The notes under the pieces were generated by a model. It ran no database searches. It was not told the DNA's origin and was given only the letters and a program-made list of their open reading frames with translations. A DNA stretch of 64,000 nucleotides from an uncultured SAR86 cluster bacterium (GTDB lineage Bacteria > Pseudomonadota > Gammaproteobacteria > Magnimaribacterales > D2472), in contig CACMVA010000002.1 in NCBI GenBank assembly GCA_902617045.1, positions 164,014-228,013 of the forward strand. Direction: 5' to 3'. The first letter of the stretch is position 1, and every line of letters begins with the position of its first letter. Positions 7,893 through 16,781 of this stretch are shown here, in pieces. The translations under genes were made by a program, and so were the position numbers.

Positions 7893-8506
7893 GTTGGATT
7901 GAATGTAATCACTACACTTTTAAAATTACTATTGTATAAACTATATGGAATATCCTTAAAGAAACTAAAAGTCTCAGCTCGTTGTACAGCCTTTAAAGCT
8001 GAATTATCAAATCTTAAATTCCCACTGCTTCTAATCAAATTAACATTAACAATTCTCCCATTTTTATTTATTGACAATCTTAGGTCGCAAACCAAGCCGT
8101 CCTGAATATTAATTGGCTTTCGCCAGGCTGACTGTATGCTCTTTATGATAAGAGAGCTGTATAGTTCTACTTGACTATGTTGAGATTCTTTAGATATTAA
8201 TTTATCTTCAGCAATTAAGTCATCAAAGCTAACAGATGGTATGAGAGAATCGAATGAAATAGTTTCATCAGGAATTATCTCATTCATTGAATTATCATTA
8301 ATAATTTCTTTTGGTTCTAATTTTTGATTGATTTGCTTTTTAGCTTCAATCTTTTCTTCAAAAATTAAATTTACCTCAATTGGCTTACTCAATACTGAGG
8401 TTTGTTGAGATTCATAATAAAAAAAACCAAGAAGATATAGAATAATTGATGCATGAATTAAAAAAGATATAAAAGAAGCCTCTAAATATATTTGATTAAT
8501 TTTCAT
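7889..8506 (-). CDS. tolA: Tol-Pal system protein TolA, short form
   Basis: Inner-membrane protein that reaches across the periplasm and transmits energy from TolQR to TolB-Pal. The 205-residue product keeps a membrane anchor (about residues 11-31) and the TolA C-terminal domain (about 115-205, with LRLSINKNGRIVNVNLIRSSG and FDNSALKAVQRA). The long Ala/Lys/Glu helical domain II of E. coli TolA (421 residues) is replaced by about 80 residues of acidic, low-complexity linker. It overlaps tolR by 11 bp and tolB by 4 bp. Identification rests on the C-terminal domain and operon position. Confidence 0.92.
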   Translation of the reverse strand: MKINQIYLEASFISFLIHASIILYLLGFFYYESQQTSVLSKPIEVNLIFEEKIEAKKQINQKLEPKEIINDNSMNEIIPDETISFDSLIPSVSFDDLIAEDKLISKESQHSQVELYSSLIIKSIQSAWRKPINIQDGLVCDLRLSINKNGRIVNVNLIRSSGNLRFDNSALKAVQRAETFSFFKDIPYSLYNSNFKSVVITFNPT

Positions 8507-8918
8507 AGCCGCTTGTTACAATTCCGACTTTAGTAATACCTACGCTTTGAACAGATGCCATGGCTTTTGCTACAAAATCAAATGCAACATTTCTGTCACT
8601 TTGAAAAACTACTTCAATCTCTGGATTTGCTTTAAAGATTACTTCAGACTTTCTCTTTAATTCATTTAAATCAATAGGCAATGACTCCTCTCCGACGTTT
8701 ATGAAATAATTTCCATTTTTATCAATTGATATTACAAGTGGTTCATTTTGAACACTCATTTTAGTTGTATCAGTTTGAGGTAAATCAACCTCCACACCTT
8801 GAATCAACAAAGGTGACAAAACCATAAAAATAATCAACAAAACCAGCATAACATCGATATATGGAACTACATTTATTTCTGCTTTAAGATTTTTCTTTTT
8901 TGCTAATCTATATATCAT
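8496..8918 (-). CDS. tolR: Tol-Pal system protein TolR
   Basis: ExbD/TolR family inner-membrane protein, part of the proton-driven TolQR motor. The 140 residues hold one transmembrane helix (about 20-40) whose NVVPYIDVMLVLLIIFM segment carries the conserved Asp (Asp22) needed for proton use, followed by a periplasmic domain. Length equals the family norm. The start shares one base with the tolQ stop (TAATG), and the end overlaps tolA by 11 bp. Confidence 0.97.
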   Translation of the reverse strand: MIYRLAKKKNLKAEINVVPYIDVMLVLLIIFMVLSPLLIQGVEVDLPQTDTTKMSVQNEPLVISIDKNGNYFINVGEESLPIDLNELKRKSEVIFKANPEIEVVFQSDRNVAFDFVAKAMASVQSVGITKVGIVTSGYEN

Positions 8919-9589
8919 TATTTTTTATCAATTGACTGTTTATAAAAAATACTTGCTAGCTCCTCTGCAAAAATTAATGTACCTTGACTGATAGTTTCTG
9001 ATTCAGAGGTAAATTTATTAAAAGCTACTACTGCTGGTATAGCAGCAAATAGTCCCATGCCAGTTGCAATCAATGCCTCTGAGATTCCTGGTGCTACAGC
9101 ATTTATAGTAGCTTGAGTAGCATCTGAAAGTCCCATAAATGATGTCATTATCCCCCATACCGTCCCAAGCAAGCCTATGTATGGGCTAACAGATCCAACA
9201 TTTGCTAAAAAAGATAAATGCTTGTTCATTTCTTCTTCATCAGAAGCTATAGAAACCCTCATAGAGCGATTAATACTCTCAAGATCTAATTCAGAAATAC
9301 TGTCTCCAACCTTAATTGAATTAAATTCGCTAAAAGAATTTTTAAATAAGTTTCTTGCCCCATATAAATTATCATCTTTCAATACCTCGTTATACAAAGC
9401 GTCTAAATCTTTTCCACTCCAAAAAATTCTTAAAAATTCATCATTGGCGCTTTTTACTTTTCTAAAAAAATTATATCTTTCAACAATTATTATCCAGGAG
9501 AGTATTGAGGCAATAAAAAGAATTAACATTACCATCTTGACTACAATTCCTGCCTCTAAAATAAGATTTAATACTGAAATATCATCCAT
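8918..9589 (-). CDS. tolQ: Tol-Pal system protein TolQ
   Basis: MotA/TolQ/ExbB family channel subunit. The 223-residue protein has an N-terminal helix (about residues 14-36), a cytoplasmic loop, and two C-terminal helices with NVGSVSPYIGLLGTVWGIM (about 127-145) and GISEALIATGMGLFAAIPAVVAFN, which hold the conserved Thr and Pro of the motor pore. It works with TolR to energise TolA. Nine bases separate it from ybgC. Confidence 0.97.
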   Translation of the reverse strand: MDDISVLNLILEAGIVVKMVMLILFIASILSWIIIVERYNFFRKVKSANDEFLRIFWSGKDLDALYNEVLKDDNLYGARNLFKNSFSEFNSIKVGDSISELDLESINRSMRVSIASDEEEMNKHLSFLANVGSVSPYIGLLGTVWGIMTSFMGLSDATQATINAVAPGISEALIATGMGLFAAIPAVVAFNKFTSESETISQGTLIFAEELASIFYKQSIDKK

Positions 9590-9598
9590 AACACTATC

Positions 9599-10009
9599 CT
9601 AGTCAAAAATTAACAATAAATCATCAGGAAACTTTTTTGGTTTCTTCGATGATAGATTTATAAAACAAACCTCTACCTCACCATTAACAAATTCTTCTCC
9701 AGAAATTTTATCAACTACTTTTTGATAAAAAATCATCCTTGCATCAGATTTTTTTTCTACAATTGACTGAACAACTATTTGATTACCAAGCTCAGCAGCT
9801 TTTAAGTAATTAATTTTGATGCTTTTAACTATAAATGCTAGATCTTTTTCTCTTAATTTATTTTGAGAAATATTTGCATAAGATAGAAATTCAGATCTTG
9901 ATCTTTCGAAATACTTTAAGTAATTCGAATGATATACAACTCCTTGAAAATCTGTATCTTCAATATATATTTGAAATTCTATATCTTCACACTTGATAAT
10001 TTTTTTCAT
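9599..10009 (-). CDS. ybgC: YbgC-type acyl-CoA thioesterase
   Basis: Hot-dog-fold thioesterase of the 4-hydroxybenzoyl-CoA class, the regular first gene before tolQ. The motif EDTDFQGVVYHSNYLKYFERSRSE (in shorter form EDTD...GVVYHSNY) carries the catalytic Asp. I choose the ATG at 10009 (136 residues): a strong AGGAGGA site lies 11 bases upstream, and the family N-terminus aligns here. A longer frame would begin ten codons earlier. The gene starts inside the end of the upstream nuclease gene (23-bp overlap). Confidence 0.93.
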   Translation of the reverse strand: MKKIIKCEDIEFQIYIEDTDFQGVVYHSNYLKYFERSRSEFLSYANISQNKLREKDLAFIVKSIKINYLKAAELGNQIVVQSIVEKKSDARMIFYQKVVDKISGEEFVNGEVEVCFINLSSKKPKKFPDDLLLIFD

Positions 10010-10412
10010 GCAGCTCAATGTCCTCCTGAAATAACTCAAGTATTATCTGAATAAAATCTGGCCATAAAAGGTCTACAGTAACAAGATCGTTCTTAATATT
10101 GTGATTTATGGAGTTTGCTAATATTCGAACTTTAATAGGTCTATTGTTAAATTTATATACAAGTGCAGGTCTTAAACCCTCTTGATTCGATGATGCGAGA
10201 ACTTGCTCCCACCAATCAGGTCTAGGTTCTGCACCAGCTCCATATGCCTTACACTCAATACACCATCTTCCAAGCATGAGATCAGGTAACTCCTTAGTCC
10301 GAGTCTGCTCTAAGATTCTTTTGACTGGATTCTTTAAGTTAAGATCATTTATCAATGCATTAGCAATTTGTCGTTCAAATGCAGCACCTTTATTTCTTGA
10401 ATTGATTGACAA
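9987..10412 (-). CDS. Hjc/Hjr-like PD-(D/E)XK nuclease in place of ruvCAB
   Basis: A 141-residue protein with the layout of small Holliday-junction-type PD-(D/E)XK nucleases. It opens with RNKGAAFERQIANAL, giving an N-terminal Glu13, followed by PD at 43-44 and IECK at 52-55, so the putative metal site is Glu13/Asp44/Glu53/Lys55. A DWWEQVL helix and an ALVYKFNNRPIKV strand follow, a pattern I associate with phage-type resolvase-like nucleases. It sits between yebC and ybgC, exactly where Pseudomonas and related genomes carry ruvC-ruvA-ruvB. The fold is well supported by motifs; the junction-resolving role is inference from position. No substrate can be read from sequence, and it could instead be a repair or restriction-like nuclease. 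Confidence 0.75.
   Translation of the reverse strand: MSINSRNKGAAFERQIANALINDLNLKNPVKRILEQTRTKELPDLMLGRWCIECKAYGAGAEPRPDWWEQVLASSNQEGLRPALVYKFNNRPIKVRILANSINHNIKNDLVTVDLLWPDFIQIILELFQEDIELHEKNYQV
10021..10027 (-). promoter_or_regulatory. Strong ribosome binding site for ybgC
   Basis: AGGAGGA on the minus strand, 11 bases before the ATG at 10009 and inside the coding region of the nuclease. It decides the ybgC start against the longer in-frame alternative at 10039, which would place this site inside the coding sequence. Confidence 0.7.
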
Positions 10413-10415
10413 AAT

Positions 10416-11153
10416 TTATTCCTTAATCTCAAAATTTTCCGGGAATTCTGCATTAGTGTGAACTTCTTGGACATCATCAAGATCATCCATAAACTCCATA
10501 ATATTTAAGACTTTTTCAGACATATCTTGATCAAGGTCCACAAGTGTATCAGCTCGCAAGGTTAGTTCGGCATTAATATATTGGATATCATTCTCTTTAA
10601 AGAAATCAATAACCTTATTAAATTGATTTGGATCTGTTGTTACTTCAAAGAAATCATCTTCTTCTGAAAAATCTTGTGCTCCAGATTCAATAACATTCTC
10701 CATAAGAATTTCTTCTGAGTAATCCTTATTTATGTGGATTACTCCAAGTTTTTTAAATAAATATGAAACAGATCCATCAGTTCCAAGATTACCTCCAAAC
10801 TTTGAGAATGCATGCCTAACATCTGAAACAGTCCTATTTCTATTATCTGTCATAGTTTCTACAAGGATAGCAACTCCTCCTGGACCATATCCTTCAAATA
10901 TTATTTCTTCTAATTCTCCAGTTTCTCCTGTCCCCGAACCTTTTTCTATAGCTCTTTTAATAGTGTCTTTAGGCATATTTGCAGCATTTGCCTTTTCAAG
11001 AGCTAGTCTCAATCTTGGATTATCATTTGGATCAGGGCCATCCTTCGCTGCAACAGTAATTTCTCTTATGACCTTGGTCCAAACCTTTCCTCGTGATGCG
11101 TCTTGTCTGGCTTTCCTATGTTTTATGTTTGCCCATTTTGAATGACCAGCCAT
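10416..11153 (-). CDS. yebC: YebC/PmpR family protein (TACO1-like)
   Basis: Cytoplasmic YebC/TACO1 family protein, linked in other species to relief of ribosome stalling at proline runs and to transcriptional control. The 245 residues begin with the signature MAGHSKWANIKHRKARQD and include the family's GYGPGGVAILVE and GGNLGTDGSVSYLF segments. It lies 3 bp after aspS and 3 bp before the nuclease gene, in the standard aspS-yebC order. Confidence 0.97.
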   Translation of the reverse strand: MAGHSKWANIKHRKARQDASRGKVWTKVIREITVAAKDGPDPNDNPRLRLALEKANAANMPKDTIKRAIEKGSGTGETGELEEIIFEGYGPGGVAILVETMTDNRNRTVSDVRHAFSKFGGNLGTDGSVSYLFKKLGVIHINKDYSEEILMENVIESGAQDFSEEDDFFEVTTDPNQFNKVIDFFKENDIQYINAELTLRADTLVDLDQDMSEKVLNIMEFMDDLDDVQEVHTNAEFPENFEIKE

Positions 11154-11156
11154 TAA

Positions 11157-12923
11157 CTATTCTTCCTTATGTGTACTAATTATTTTAAGTTCATCAAGCT
11201 GATCTTTATCAACCTTACTTGGAGCATCCGTTAATAGACATGTCGCGCTTTGAGTTTTAGGGAATGCAATCACATCTCTTATGTTTGTAGTATCTGTTAC
11301 AAGCATGACAATTCTATCTAATCCGAATGCGATTCCACCATGAGGTGGACAACCTGAGGACAAAGCCTTTAGAAGGAAACCAAACTTACTCTCAGCTTCT
11401 TTCTTTGAAATGTTAAGAATTTCAAAAATTGCTTCTTGCATATTTTTATCATAAATTCTTAAAGATCCTCCACCTATTTCATATCCGTTCAAAACAACAT
11501 CATATGCATATGCAAGAACATCGTTTGGATTTTCTAAAAGCTCTTTCTTTGATGCTTTAGGTAAAGTAAATGGATGATGAAGCGGTGTTAGACTTCCCTC
11601 GGCATTTAATTCAAACATTGGAAAATTCACTATCCAACAAGGAGCCCATTTTGAAACATATAAATCTAAATCATGTCCTAATTTTTTAATAAGACTACTC
11701 ATTGATAAGTTAACAACAGATTCACTTCCAGCTCCAAAAAAGATTAAATCATCTGTTTTCACTTCAAGAGTTTTAAAAATATTTTGAATTGTTTTTTTAT
11801 TTAAAAACTTCAGTATGGGAGACTGAATGCCATTCTCAAGATCTTTAACATCATTAATCTTTATGTAAGCAAGCCCTTTTGCACCCAACTTAGATACAAA
11901 TTTTGTATAGTCATCAATTTGACCTCTTGACATTGTATTTCCGTTAGGAACTTTTAAAGCAACCACTCTTGATCCTTCCTTTTTAGCAGGATCAGAGAAT
12001 ACTTTGAATTCCTCATTAATAACAAGATCTGATATTTCTTTGAGCTTTAAAGGAATCCTTAAATCTGGTTTATCACAACCATATTCCTCCATAGCATCAT
12101 GCCAATCAATCACCTCAAATTTACCAAGTTTTTCTCCACAGAATTCTTTAATTACATCTTTAATCATCTTTTCGCTAAGCTTCATGATTTCTTCCTGATT
12201 AATGAAAGATGCCTCAATATCAATTTGAGTAAATTCTGGTTGTCTATCTGCCCTCAAATCCTCATCTCTAAAACATCGGGCAATTTGATAATATTTATCT
12301 AAGCCGCCAATCATCAAGAGTTGTTTGAATAATTGAGGTGATTGAGGTAATGCATAAAAACTACCTGGTTGAACTCTGCTTGGTAAAATATAATCTCTGG
12401 CGCCTTCTGGAGTAGCTTTAGTTAAAATTGGCGTTTCAATCTCATGAAATTCATTTTTATCAAGGTAGTTTCTAATTAAAGAAGTAATTTTTGATCTTTT
12501 AATAATTCGATCATTCATTTCTGGGCGTCTAAGATCAAGCACCCTATTCTTTAATCTTACATCTTCATTAACTTCCTGATATTCGTCTATTGGAAAAACT
12601 GGAGTGTTTGCCTTGCTGAGGATATTGATATTAGCGACCTCTATCTCAATTTCACCAGTTTGCATATTTTTATTTATTGTTCCTTCAAGTCTATTTCTTA
12701 CAACACCTTCTATCTGAACAACAAATTCGTTTCTTATTGATTCTGCTAATTGGAATGATTCTTTATTATCAGGATTTACAACAGCTTGGCATATACCTTT
12801 TATATCCCTCACATCTAAAAAAATTACTCCTCCATGATCTCTTCTTCTATGTATCCATCCACAGATAGTAACCTTCTCTTTGAGATTAGATGATGTAATT
12901 TCACCACAATAATGAGATTTCAT
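11157..12923 (-). CDS. aspS: Aspartyl-tRNA synthetase
   Basis: Class II aminoacyl-tRNA synthetase that charges tRNA with aspartate. The 588-residue bacterial-type enzyme has an N-terminal OB-fold ([19 protein letters not shown]), motif 2 with [18 protein letters not shown], the GAD insertion domain (about residues 300-410), and motif 3 [13 protein letters not shown] near the C-terminus. Length matches E. coli (590). Whether it also charges tRNA-Asn is unknown; the start of gatC at the right edge shows that an amidotransferase is present in the genome. Confidence 0.98.
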
Positions 12924-15773: not shown

Positions 15774-16781
15774 TTATTTAGATTTACTTGAAATGTAAGA
15801 AGATCTTATTTCTTTTACAAGTTTGTCTCTAACTTTTGCATTTTCTTTTAGGAAAGTACTAGCTTTTACCTTACCTTGTCCAATACTCTCACCATCTAAT
15901 TTATAAAAAGCACCTGATTTATCAACCAAACCAAGTTTGTGACCAAAGTCTAATATTTCACCTTCCTGGTTGATTCCTTGTCCATACATAATCTGGAACT
16001 CTGCTTGTTTAAAAGGAGGAGATACTTTATTTTTGACAACTTTAACTCTTGTTTCGTTACCCATTACTTCGTCTCCCTCTTTTACAGAACCAATTCTTCT
16101 AATATCTAATCTTACTGAAGAATAGAACTTTAAAGCATTACCACCAGTAGTTGTTTCAGGACTGCCAAACATAACACCAATTTTCATTCTTATTTGATTA
16201 ATAAAAACAACAGTGGCGCCAGACCTTTGAATGTTACCTGTAATTTTTCTAAGGGCTTGTGACATTAATCTAGCTTGAAGGCCAACATGATGGTCTCCCA
16301 TCTCTCCTTCAATTTCTGCTCTTGGAACCAATGCGGCAACGGAATCGATAATTACCAAATCTACGCTCTTAGATTTGACTAACATATCTGCAACTTCTAA
16401 TGCCTGTTCTCCAGTATCAGGTTGTGATAATAGCAATTCATCTACATTGACACCTAATTTTTCAGCATATTGTGGGTCTAAAGCATGTTCAGCATCAATA
16501 AAGGCACAAGTTCCTCCTTCTTTTTGACATTGAGCAATTATTTGAAGTGTCAGGGTAGTTTTACCAGAAGACTCAGGTCCATAAATTTCTGTAACTCTCC
16601 CTTTTGGAATTCCTCCTATTCCAAGTGCAATATCAAGACCAAGTGATCCTGTTGAAATTGAGGGGATATCAAGATTTTCTCGATCGCCCATTCTCATTAC
16701 TGTTCCTTTACCAAAATGATCGTCAATACTTGCAATAGTATCTTTTAATGATTTTGAAGTAGTATCTTTCGATTTAGGCAT
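15774..16781 (-). CDS. recA: Recombinase RecA
   Basis: DNA strand-exchange ATPase and LexA co-protease. The 335-residue protein has the Walker A motif GPESSGKTT (residues 68-76), the Walker B strand [12 protein letters not shown], and the L2 region with [14 protein letters not shown]. It is slightly shorter than E. coli RecA (353) at the acidic C-terminus. AAGGAG at 16788-16793 lies 6 bases before the ATG. A near-consensus LexA box sits in its promoter. It is transcribed leftward and ends at a hairpin before the thiolase. Confidence 0.98.

Follow-up and report, generated by a model that had tools for sequence, protein, structure and literature searches.

Background

In the Firmicutes, RuvC is known to be replaced by RecU, a PD-(D/E)XK resolvase unrelated to it (PMC1193525). 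RecU is partnered by RuvAB, and its gene rarely adjoins ruvAB. Among the RecA-containing genomes in a survey of 117 species, just two had no RuvAB, and both of these have RecG (PMC1193525). Other PD-(D/E)XK resolvases are the archaeal Hjc and Hje enzymes (structures 1gef, 2wcw, 2eo0 and 1ob8), which are 123 to 147 amino acids long, are unrelated to RuvC, and carry K-G..E-R, Arg, Asp and E-x-K elements. In Pyrococcus furiosus Hjc, Glu9, Arg10, Arg25, Asp33, Glu46 and Lys48 are reported to be important (PMC10140301). A distant Hjc-like bacterial protein has been reported to bind DNA without cutting it, and sequences related to that protein have no equivalents of Glu9, Arg10 and Arg25 (PMC10140301). 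Among phages, Hjc_15-6 of Thermus phage Tth15-6 is an Hjc-type enzyme that cuts X-shaped DNA, and no replacement of a host enzyme by it has been reported (PMC8805305). Phage nucleases also form the family PF24608 (PDDEXK_15)/PHROG 244; our literature search found no biochemical data on any PF24608 member.

Here we analyse a gene in a 64,000-nucleotide stretch of DNA (the window) from a SAR86 draft assembly of 1.16 Mb in 21 contigs. A preliminary description of the window placed a 141-residue PD-(D/E)XK protein between yebC and ybgC, with Glu13, Pro43-Asp44, Glu53-x-Lys55 and an RNKG..FER helix, and the gene and all of these residues lie exactly there (Table 1). The protein resembles the archaeal enzymes in predicted fold, size and motifs, but it is only ~15-25% identical to them, has no sequence-level match to their family, is encoded in a bacterial chromosome, and has conserved WWxQV and PALxYKF segments of its own. 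It carries E-PD-ECK where Hjc_15-6 has E-SD-EVK, although that enzyme of a thermophilic phage is outside the 50 best structural matches. The PF24608/PHROG 244 phage nucleases share a significant family match and the same motifs with it, and phage members are up to 57-64% identical; unlike these, the SAR86 genes have become a fixed part of the host chromosome, where they stand at the place of ruvCAB. With RuvC-RuvA-RuvB the SAR86 nuclease has in common its position in the gene cluster and the step proposed for it, whereas the fold is unrelated and the motor subunits are absent. The preliminary description had likened its residue layout both to Hjc/Hjr and to RecU. The first likeness holds and extends to the phage relatives, but kinship with RecU is rejected: there is no detectable profile similarity (0.2% in hhalign), and the RuvAB partners are missing.

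Table 1. Features of the window at and around the nuclease gene
Feature	Positions	Strand	Basis
tolR	8496..8918	-	position and homology
tolQ	8918..9589	-	position and homology
ybgC-type 4HBT thioesterase, downstream flank; stands after ruvB in other Gammaproteobacteria	9599..10009	-	family match, locus comparison
Hjc-like PD-(D/E)XK nuclease gene, 141 amino acids; proposed ruvCAB stand-in	9987..10412	-	ORF, family matches, structure, profile alignment, conservation
Glu53-Cys54-Lys55 codons; equivalent to P. furiosus Hjc Glu46-x-Lys48	10248..10256	-	sequence and alignment
Pro43-Asp44 codons; Asp44 equivalent to P. furiosus Hjc Asp33	10281..10286	-	sequence and alignment
Glu13-Arg14 codons in K-G-x-x-F-E-R helix; equivalent to P. 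furiosus Hjc Glu9-Arg10	10371..10376	-	sequence and Hjc alignment
yebC (TACO1/YebC), upstream flank; stands before ruvC in other Gammaproteobacteria	10416..11153	-	family match, locus comparison
aspS, first gene of the conserved cluster	11157..12923	-	ORFs, locus comparison
recA, ~5 kb upstream of the nuclease gene; strand exchange retained	15774..16781	-	profile search

A conserved nuclease gene at the ruvCAB site

RuvC was found in 343 of 369 sampled Gammaproteobacteria and is absent from the four SAR86 genomes of that sample. We compared 12 RuvC loci from other gammaproteobacterial families. ruvC-ruvA-ruvB lies between the aspS/yebC side and the ybgC/tolQ side in nine of them, and six of these nine have the complete row yebC-ruvC-ruvA-ruvB-ybgC-tolQ, an arrangement that the preliminary description gave for Pseudomonas-type genomes and that is thereby confirmed in other Gammaproteobacteria. 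In SAR86 the nuclease gene alone occupies the interval from yebC to ybgC or tolQ. Its reading frame begins with TTG 3 nucleotides past the yebC stop codon and overlaps the start of ybgC by ~23 nucleotides.

Of 40 relatives, 36 have a detected homologue, among them every one of the 18 with a completeness of at least 90%; the homologues span all eight genera and four families searched. Wherever the contig reaches, the order aspS-yebC-nuclease-ybgC-tolQ-tolR is kept (30 and a further 84 SAR86 loci), with the exception of the most divergent and most reduced SAR86 family (f4), whose genomes are ~1 Mb. There, ybgC is absent between the nuclease gene and tolQ (loci L252-L256, L202); four of five loci read aspS-yebC-nuclease-tolQ-tolR, and in the fifth, aspS-yebC-nuclease, no tolQ was detected downstream. 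In checked members of all four SAR86 families, recA and the nuclease gene are ~4-6 kb apart.

The window's nuclease shares ~56-63% identity with its counterparts in families f2 and f3; its conservation equals that of yebC and aspS and exceeds that of tolQ or ybgC. Where dS is not fully saturated, the only comparisons used, dN/dS within SAR86 is ~0.03-0.06, and purifying selection on the nuclease is as strong as on aspS. The protein matches PF24608 at 40 bits (cut-off 27) and PHROG 244 with E=2e-13 in a profile search. These family matches, its presence in relatives, the fixed synteny and the low dN/dS together show that the gene is not a chance reading frame.

Predicted fold and active site

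An AF2 model of the nuclease (pLDDT 87.6, pTM 0.84) was compared with the PDB using Foldseek. Archaeal Holliday resolvases account for 16 of the 18 best matches, with probabilities up to 1.0, and two chains of a single restriction endonuclease make up the rest. Archaeoglobus Hjc is the top match (E=1.5e-3, probability 1.0, TM ~0.5), and the first-ranked structures are 2wcw, 2wiw, 2wcz, 2eo0 and 1gef. Because the E-values against Hjc are modest, we take the structural match to indicate an enzyme class, not a close homologue. Predicted structures of phage proteins match at 1e-11, and several of the lower-ranking ones carry the name Holliday resolvase.

A profile built from SAR86 and phage sequences reached 96.5% in hhalign against the four solved Hjc/Hje sequences, whereas among 30 column-shuffled Hjc controls the best reached 28% and the next 1%. 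The SAR86-only profile reaches only 67% against Hjc because it is shallow. In the alignment, Glu13-Arg14, the invariant Arg32, Asp44 and Glu53-x-Lys55 lie opposite P. furiosus Hjc Glu9-Arg10, Arg25, Asp33 and Glu46-x-Lys48. The last four of these Hjc positions correspond to the E-PD-EVK motif of the phage Hjc_15-6 study (PMC8805305). All six functional positions (E-R-R-D-ExK) are present in 108 of 108 complete SAR86 sequences. Thus, of what would define an Hjc, the fold (as predicted) and the six positions are found, but a sequence-level family match is not: sequence and profile searches of the PDB with the nuclease returned only noise and no Hjc chain.

Other assignments were also considered. 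A Pfam scan of the nuclease up to E=1 lists PF24608 alone, so membership in VRR-NUC is not met, and a search of NCBIfam gave no match. Neither the nuclease nor the window's genome matches the RuvC family (PF02075). The nuclease does not match the RusA family (PF05866) either, and for this reason the PHROG 244 label "RusA-like Holliday junction resolvase" is unfit as a statement about a predicted PD-(D/E)XK, Hjc-like fold. Of Hjc, RecU and VRR-NUC, the three that the preliminary description had proposed for comparison, only the first is borne out. The description held that a confident match to a non-resolvase nuclease family would speak against it; the best matches are instead junction resolvases.

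Recombination proteins absent from and retained in SAR86

Absence was assessed by family searches with cut-offs. The set comprised 81 genomes from the order, of which 38 have a completeness of at least 90% and several consist of one contig. RuvA, RuvB, RuvC and RusA each exceed the cut-off in none of the 81. The RuvB and RuvA matches below the cut-off that we inspected are ClpX, DnaX, RecR and UvrC, not Ruv proteins. RadA/Sms likewise exceeds its cut-off in none of 61 SAR86 genomes; weaker matches have the lengths and profile positions of Lon (~800 amino acids), RecA (at the recA coordinates) and a DnaB-sized protein (~470 amino acids). Full-length RecG was not found in the window's genus or in three genera of the same family (g9-g11; 15 genomes in all), where most residual matches correspond to Mfd in length and profile range. 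It is present at ~590-700 bits in most SAR86 genera, namely g12-g14 and those of three other families. RecA is above the cut-off in 60 of 61 genomes (>500 bits), and in the remaining genome recA is split across two contigs.

The possible loss of the RuvAB motor, raised in the preliminary description, is therefore borne out for the whole order. Intact ruvCAB elsewhere, which would have contradicted it, was found neither in the window's genome nor in the 80 others. Of the further genes it had named, rusA is also absent order-wide, whereas the absence of recG is confined to the window's genus and three sister genera. A 2024 study reports that, of 280 gammaproteobacterial marker genes, 28 are missing from the closed genome of the first SAR86 isolate (HIMB1674, CP151794), several of them for recombination or repair, and that 27 of these 28 are absent across 732 SAR86 genomes (PMC11582366).

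Proposed function and alternatives

We consider it likely that a phage-derived, Hjc-like resolvase displaced ruvCAB in an ancestor of SAR86, although junction cleavage is inferred and has not been shown. The earlier suggestion that a phage-type nuclease replaced RuvC is in this respect supported by the shared site, the absence of Ruv proteins and the structural matches, but not yet by any four-way junction cut. The nuclease would be a small Holliday-junction resolvase that requires metal and has a fold like that of Hjc. In the common ancestor of the Magnimaribacterales, a gene carried by a phage and belonging to PF24608/PHROG 244 would have taken over the site of ruvC-ruvA-ruvB between yebC and ybgC, with loss of the ruv genes, and would since have been inherited vertically and kept as a housekeeping gene. 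In the cell, RecA would make joint molecules, and a dimer of the nuclease may bind the four-way junction and nick two opposed strands by means of Glu13, Asp44, Glu53 and Lys55. Such cutting would proceed without a RuvAB motor, as in stand-alone phage and archaeal resolvases. Dimerization, symmetric cutting, independence of a motor and the role in the cell are all inferences. For the window's genus and related SAR86 genera we hold, with less assurance, that junctions are probably processed by this one stand-alone nuclease, with RecA kept and no known branch-migration motor (RuvAB, RecG and RadA being absent).

The main rival reading has the nuclease cut some other branched or linear DNA. It might be a structure-specific or general PD-(D/E)XK enzyme that acts on flaps, mismatches or forks or in DNA degradation and came to lie between yebC and ybgC, with junctions removed through replication run-off, RecQ-topoisomerase dissolution or YqgF. 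PD-(D/E)XK enzymes serve many functions, no substrate is given in the Pfam name of PF24608, and the lack of RadA in the whole order and of RecG in part of it implies that SAR86 bacteria may do little junction processing. We nevertheless regard such another substrate as unlikely, since junction resolvases make up nearly all of the top structural matches, RecA is retained, the sequence is as constrained as those of yebC and aspS, and the gene is kept at the ruvCAB site in four families, even without ybgC. It is position, fold and retention together that favour a junction resolvase.

It is also conceivable that RuvABC is present but overlooked, through assembly gaps or extreme divergence, and that the nuclease is additional to it. 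The window's assembly is indeed a draft in many contigs, and SAR86 is described as fast-evolving in the isolate study (PMC11582366). However, none of the three Ruv families passes its cut-off in any genome of the order, single-contig genomes included, and the high bit scores at which RecA and, in other genera, RecG are still recognized indicate that core recombination proteins are not being masked by divergence. The recombination and repair markers reported missing from the closed isolate genome also count against an oversight, which we judge very improbable. Even harder to credit is that the gene is a recent remnant of a prophage or phage island without a role in the host. Its closest relatives outside SAR86 are phage genes, and two phage groups are nested in the SAR86 part of the tree described below, but no other phage genes lie nearby, and a remnant is contradicted by the identical intergenic location in all four families of the order and by purifying selection that has left the active site invariant.

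Because of the RecU precedent, the kind of replacement preferred here, an unrelated PD-(D/E)XK resolvase in place of RuvC, is not in itself new. In the literature on SAR86 with ruvC, ruvA and recG, we found no earlier description of a free-living order in which a phage-type Hjc-like enzyme has replaced the whole ruvCAB unit and from which RadA, and in some genera RecG, is also gone. Few components of bacterial recombination are as conserved as RuvAB, yet here it is absent from an entire order abundant in the surface ocean. If our reading for the window's genus and related genera is true, a motor-free, stand-alone nuclease constitutes a minimal junction-processing pathway that has not been described in a free-living bacterium, and SAR86 makes it testable whether branch migration is dispensable in such a cell. 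The finding also bears on assessments of genome completeness and of the capacity for recombination in SAR86, and suggests a function for a large family of phage nucleases.

Kinship with phage nucleases

At least 576 relatives of the nuclease were detected in viral contigs. We also looked beyond SAR86 for copies fixed in the chromosome; of 397 other Pseudomonadota genomes, only 7 contained a relative. The neighbours of non-SAR86 relatives that we inspected are phage genes for terminase, SSB, helicase or RecT-like proteins. Such surroundings would be in keeping with a resolvase that removes DNA branches ahead of packaging, although this is an inference.

In a phylogenetic tree, the SAR86 sequences group together, two clusters from phages are nested among them, and the whole group falls within a wider set of phage sequences. 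Most simply, the ancestor of SAR86 would have received the gene once from a phage, and phages would later have acquired it twice. The tree rests on 142 columns and does not fix the direction of transfer, which is inferred and not proven. The marine phages that carry the nested copies are possibly phages of SAR86. Their SAR86-type nuclease genes lie beside virion structural genes (contig L119, 4977-5417; contig L127, 4995-5414). Contig L127 also encodes a CHASE2-nucleotide cyclase (426-2207) and a curlin-repeat protein (23-433), which are unusual cargo for a phage.
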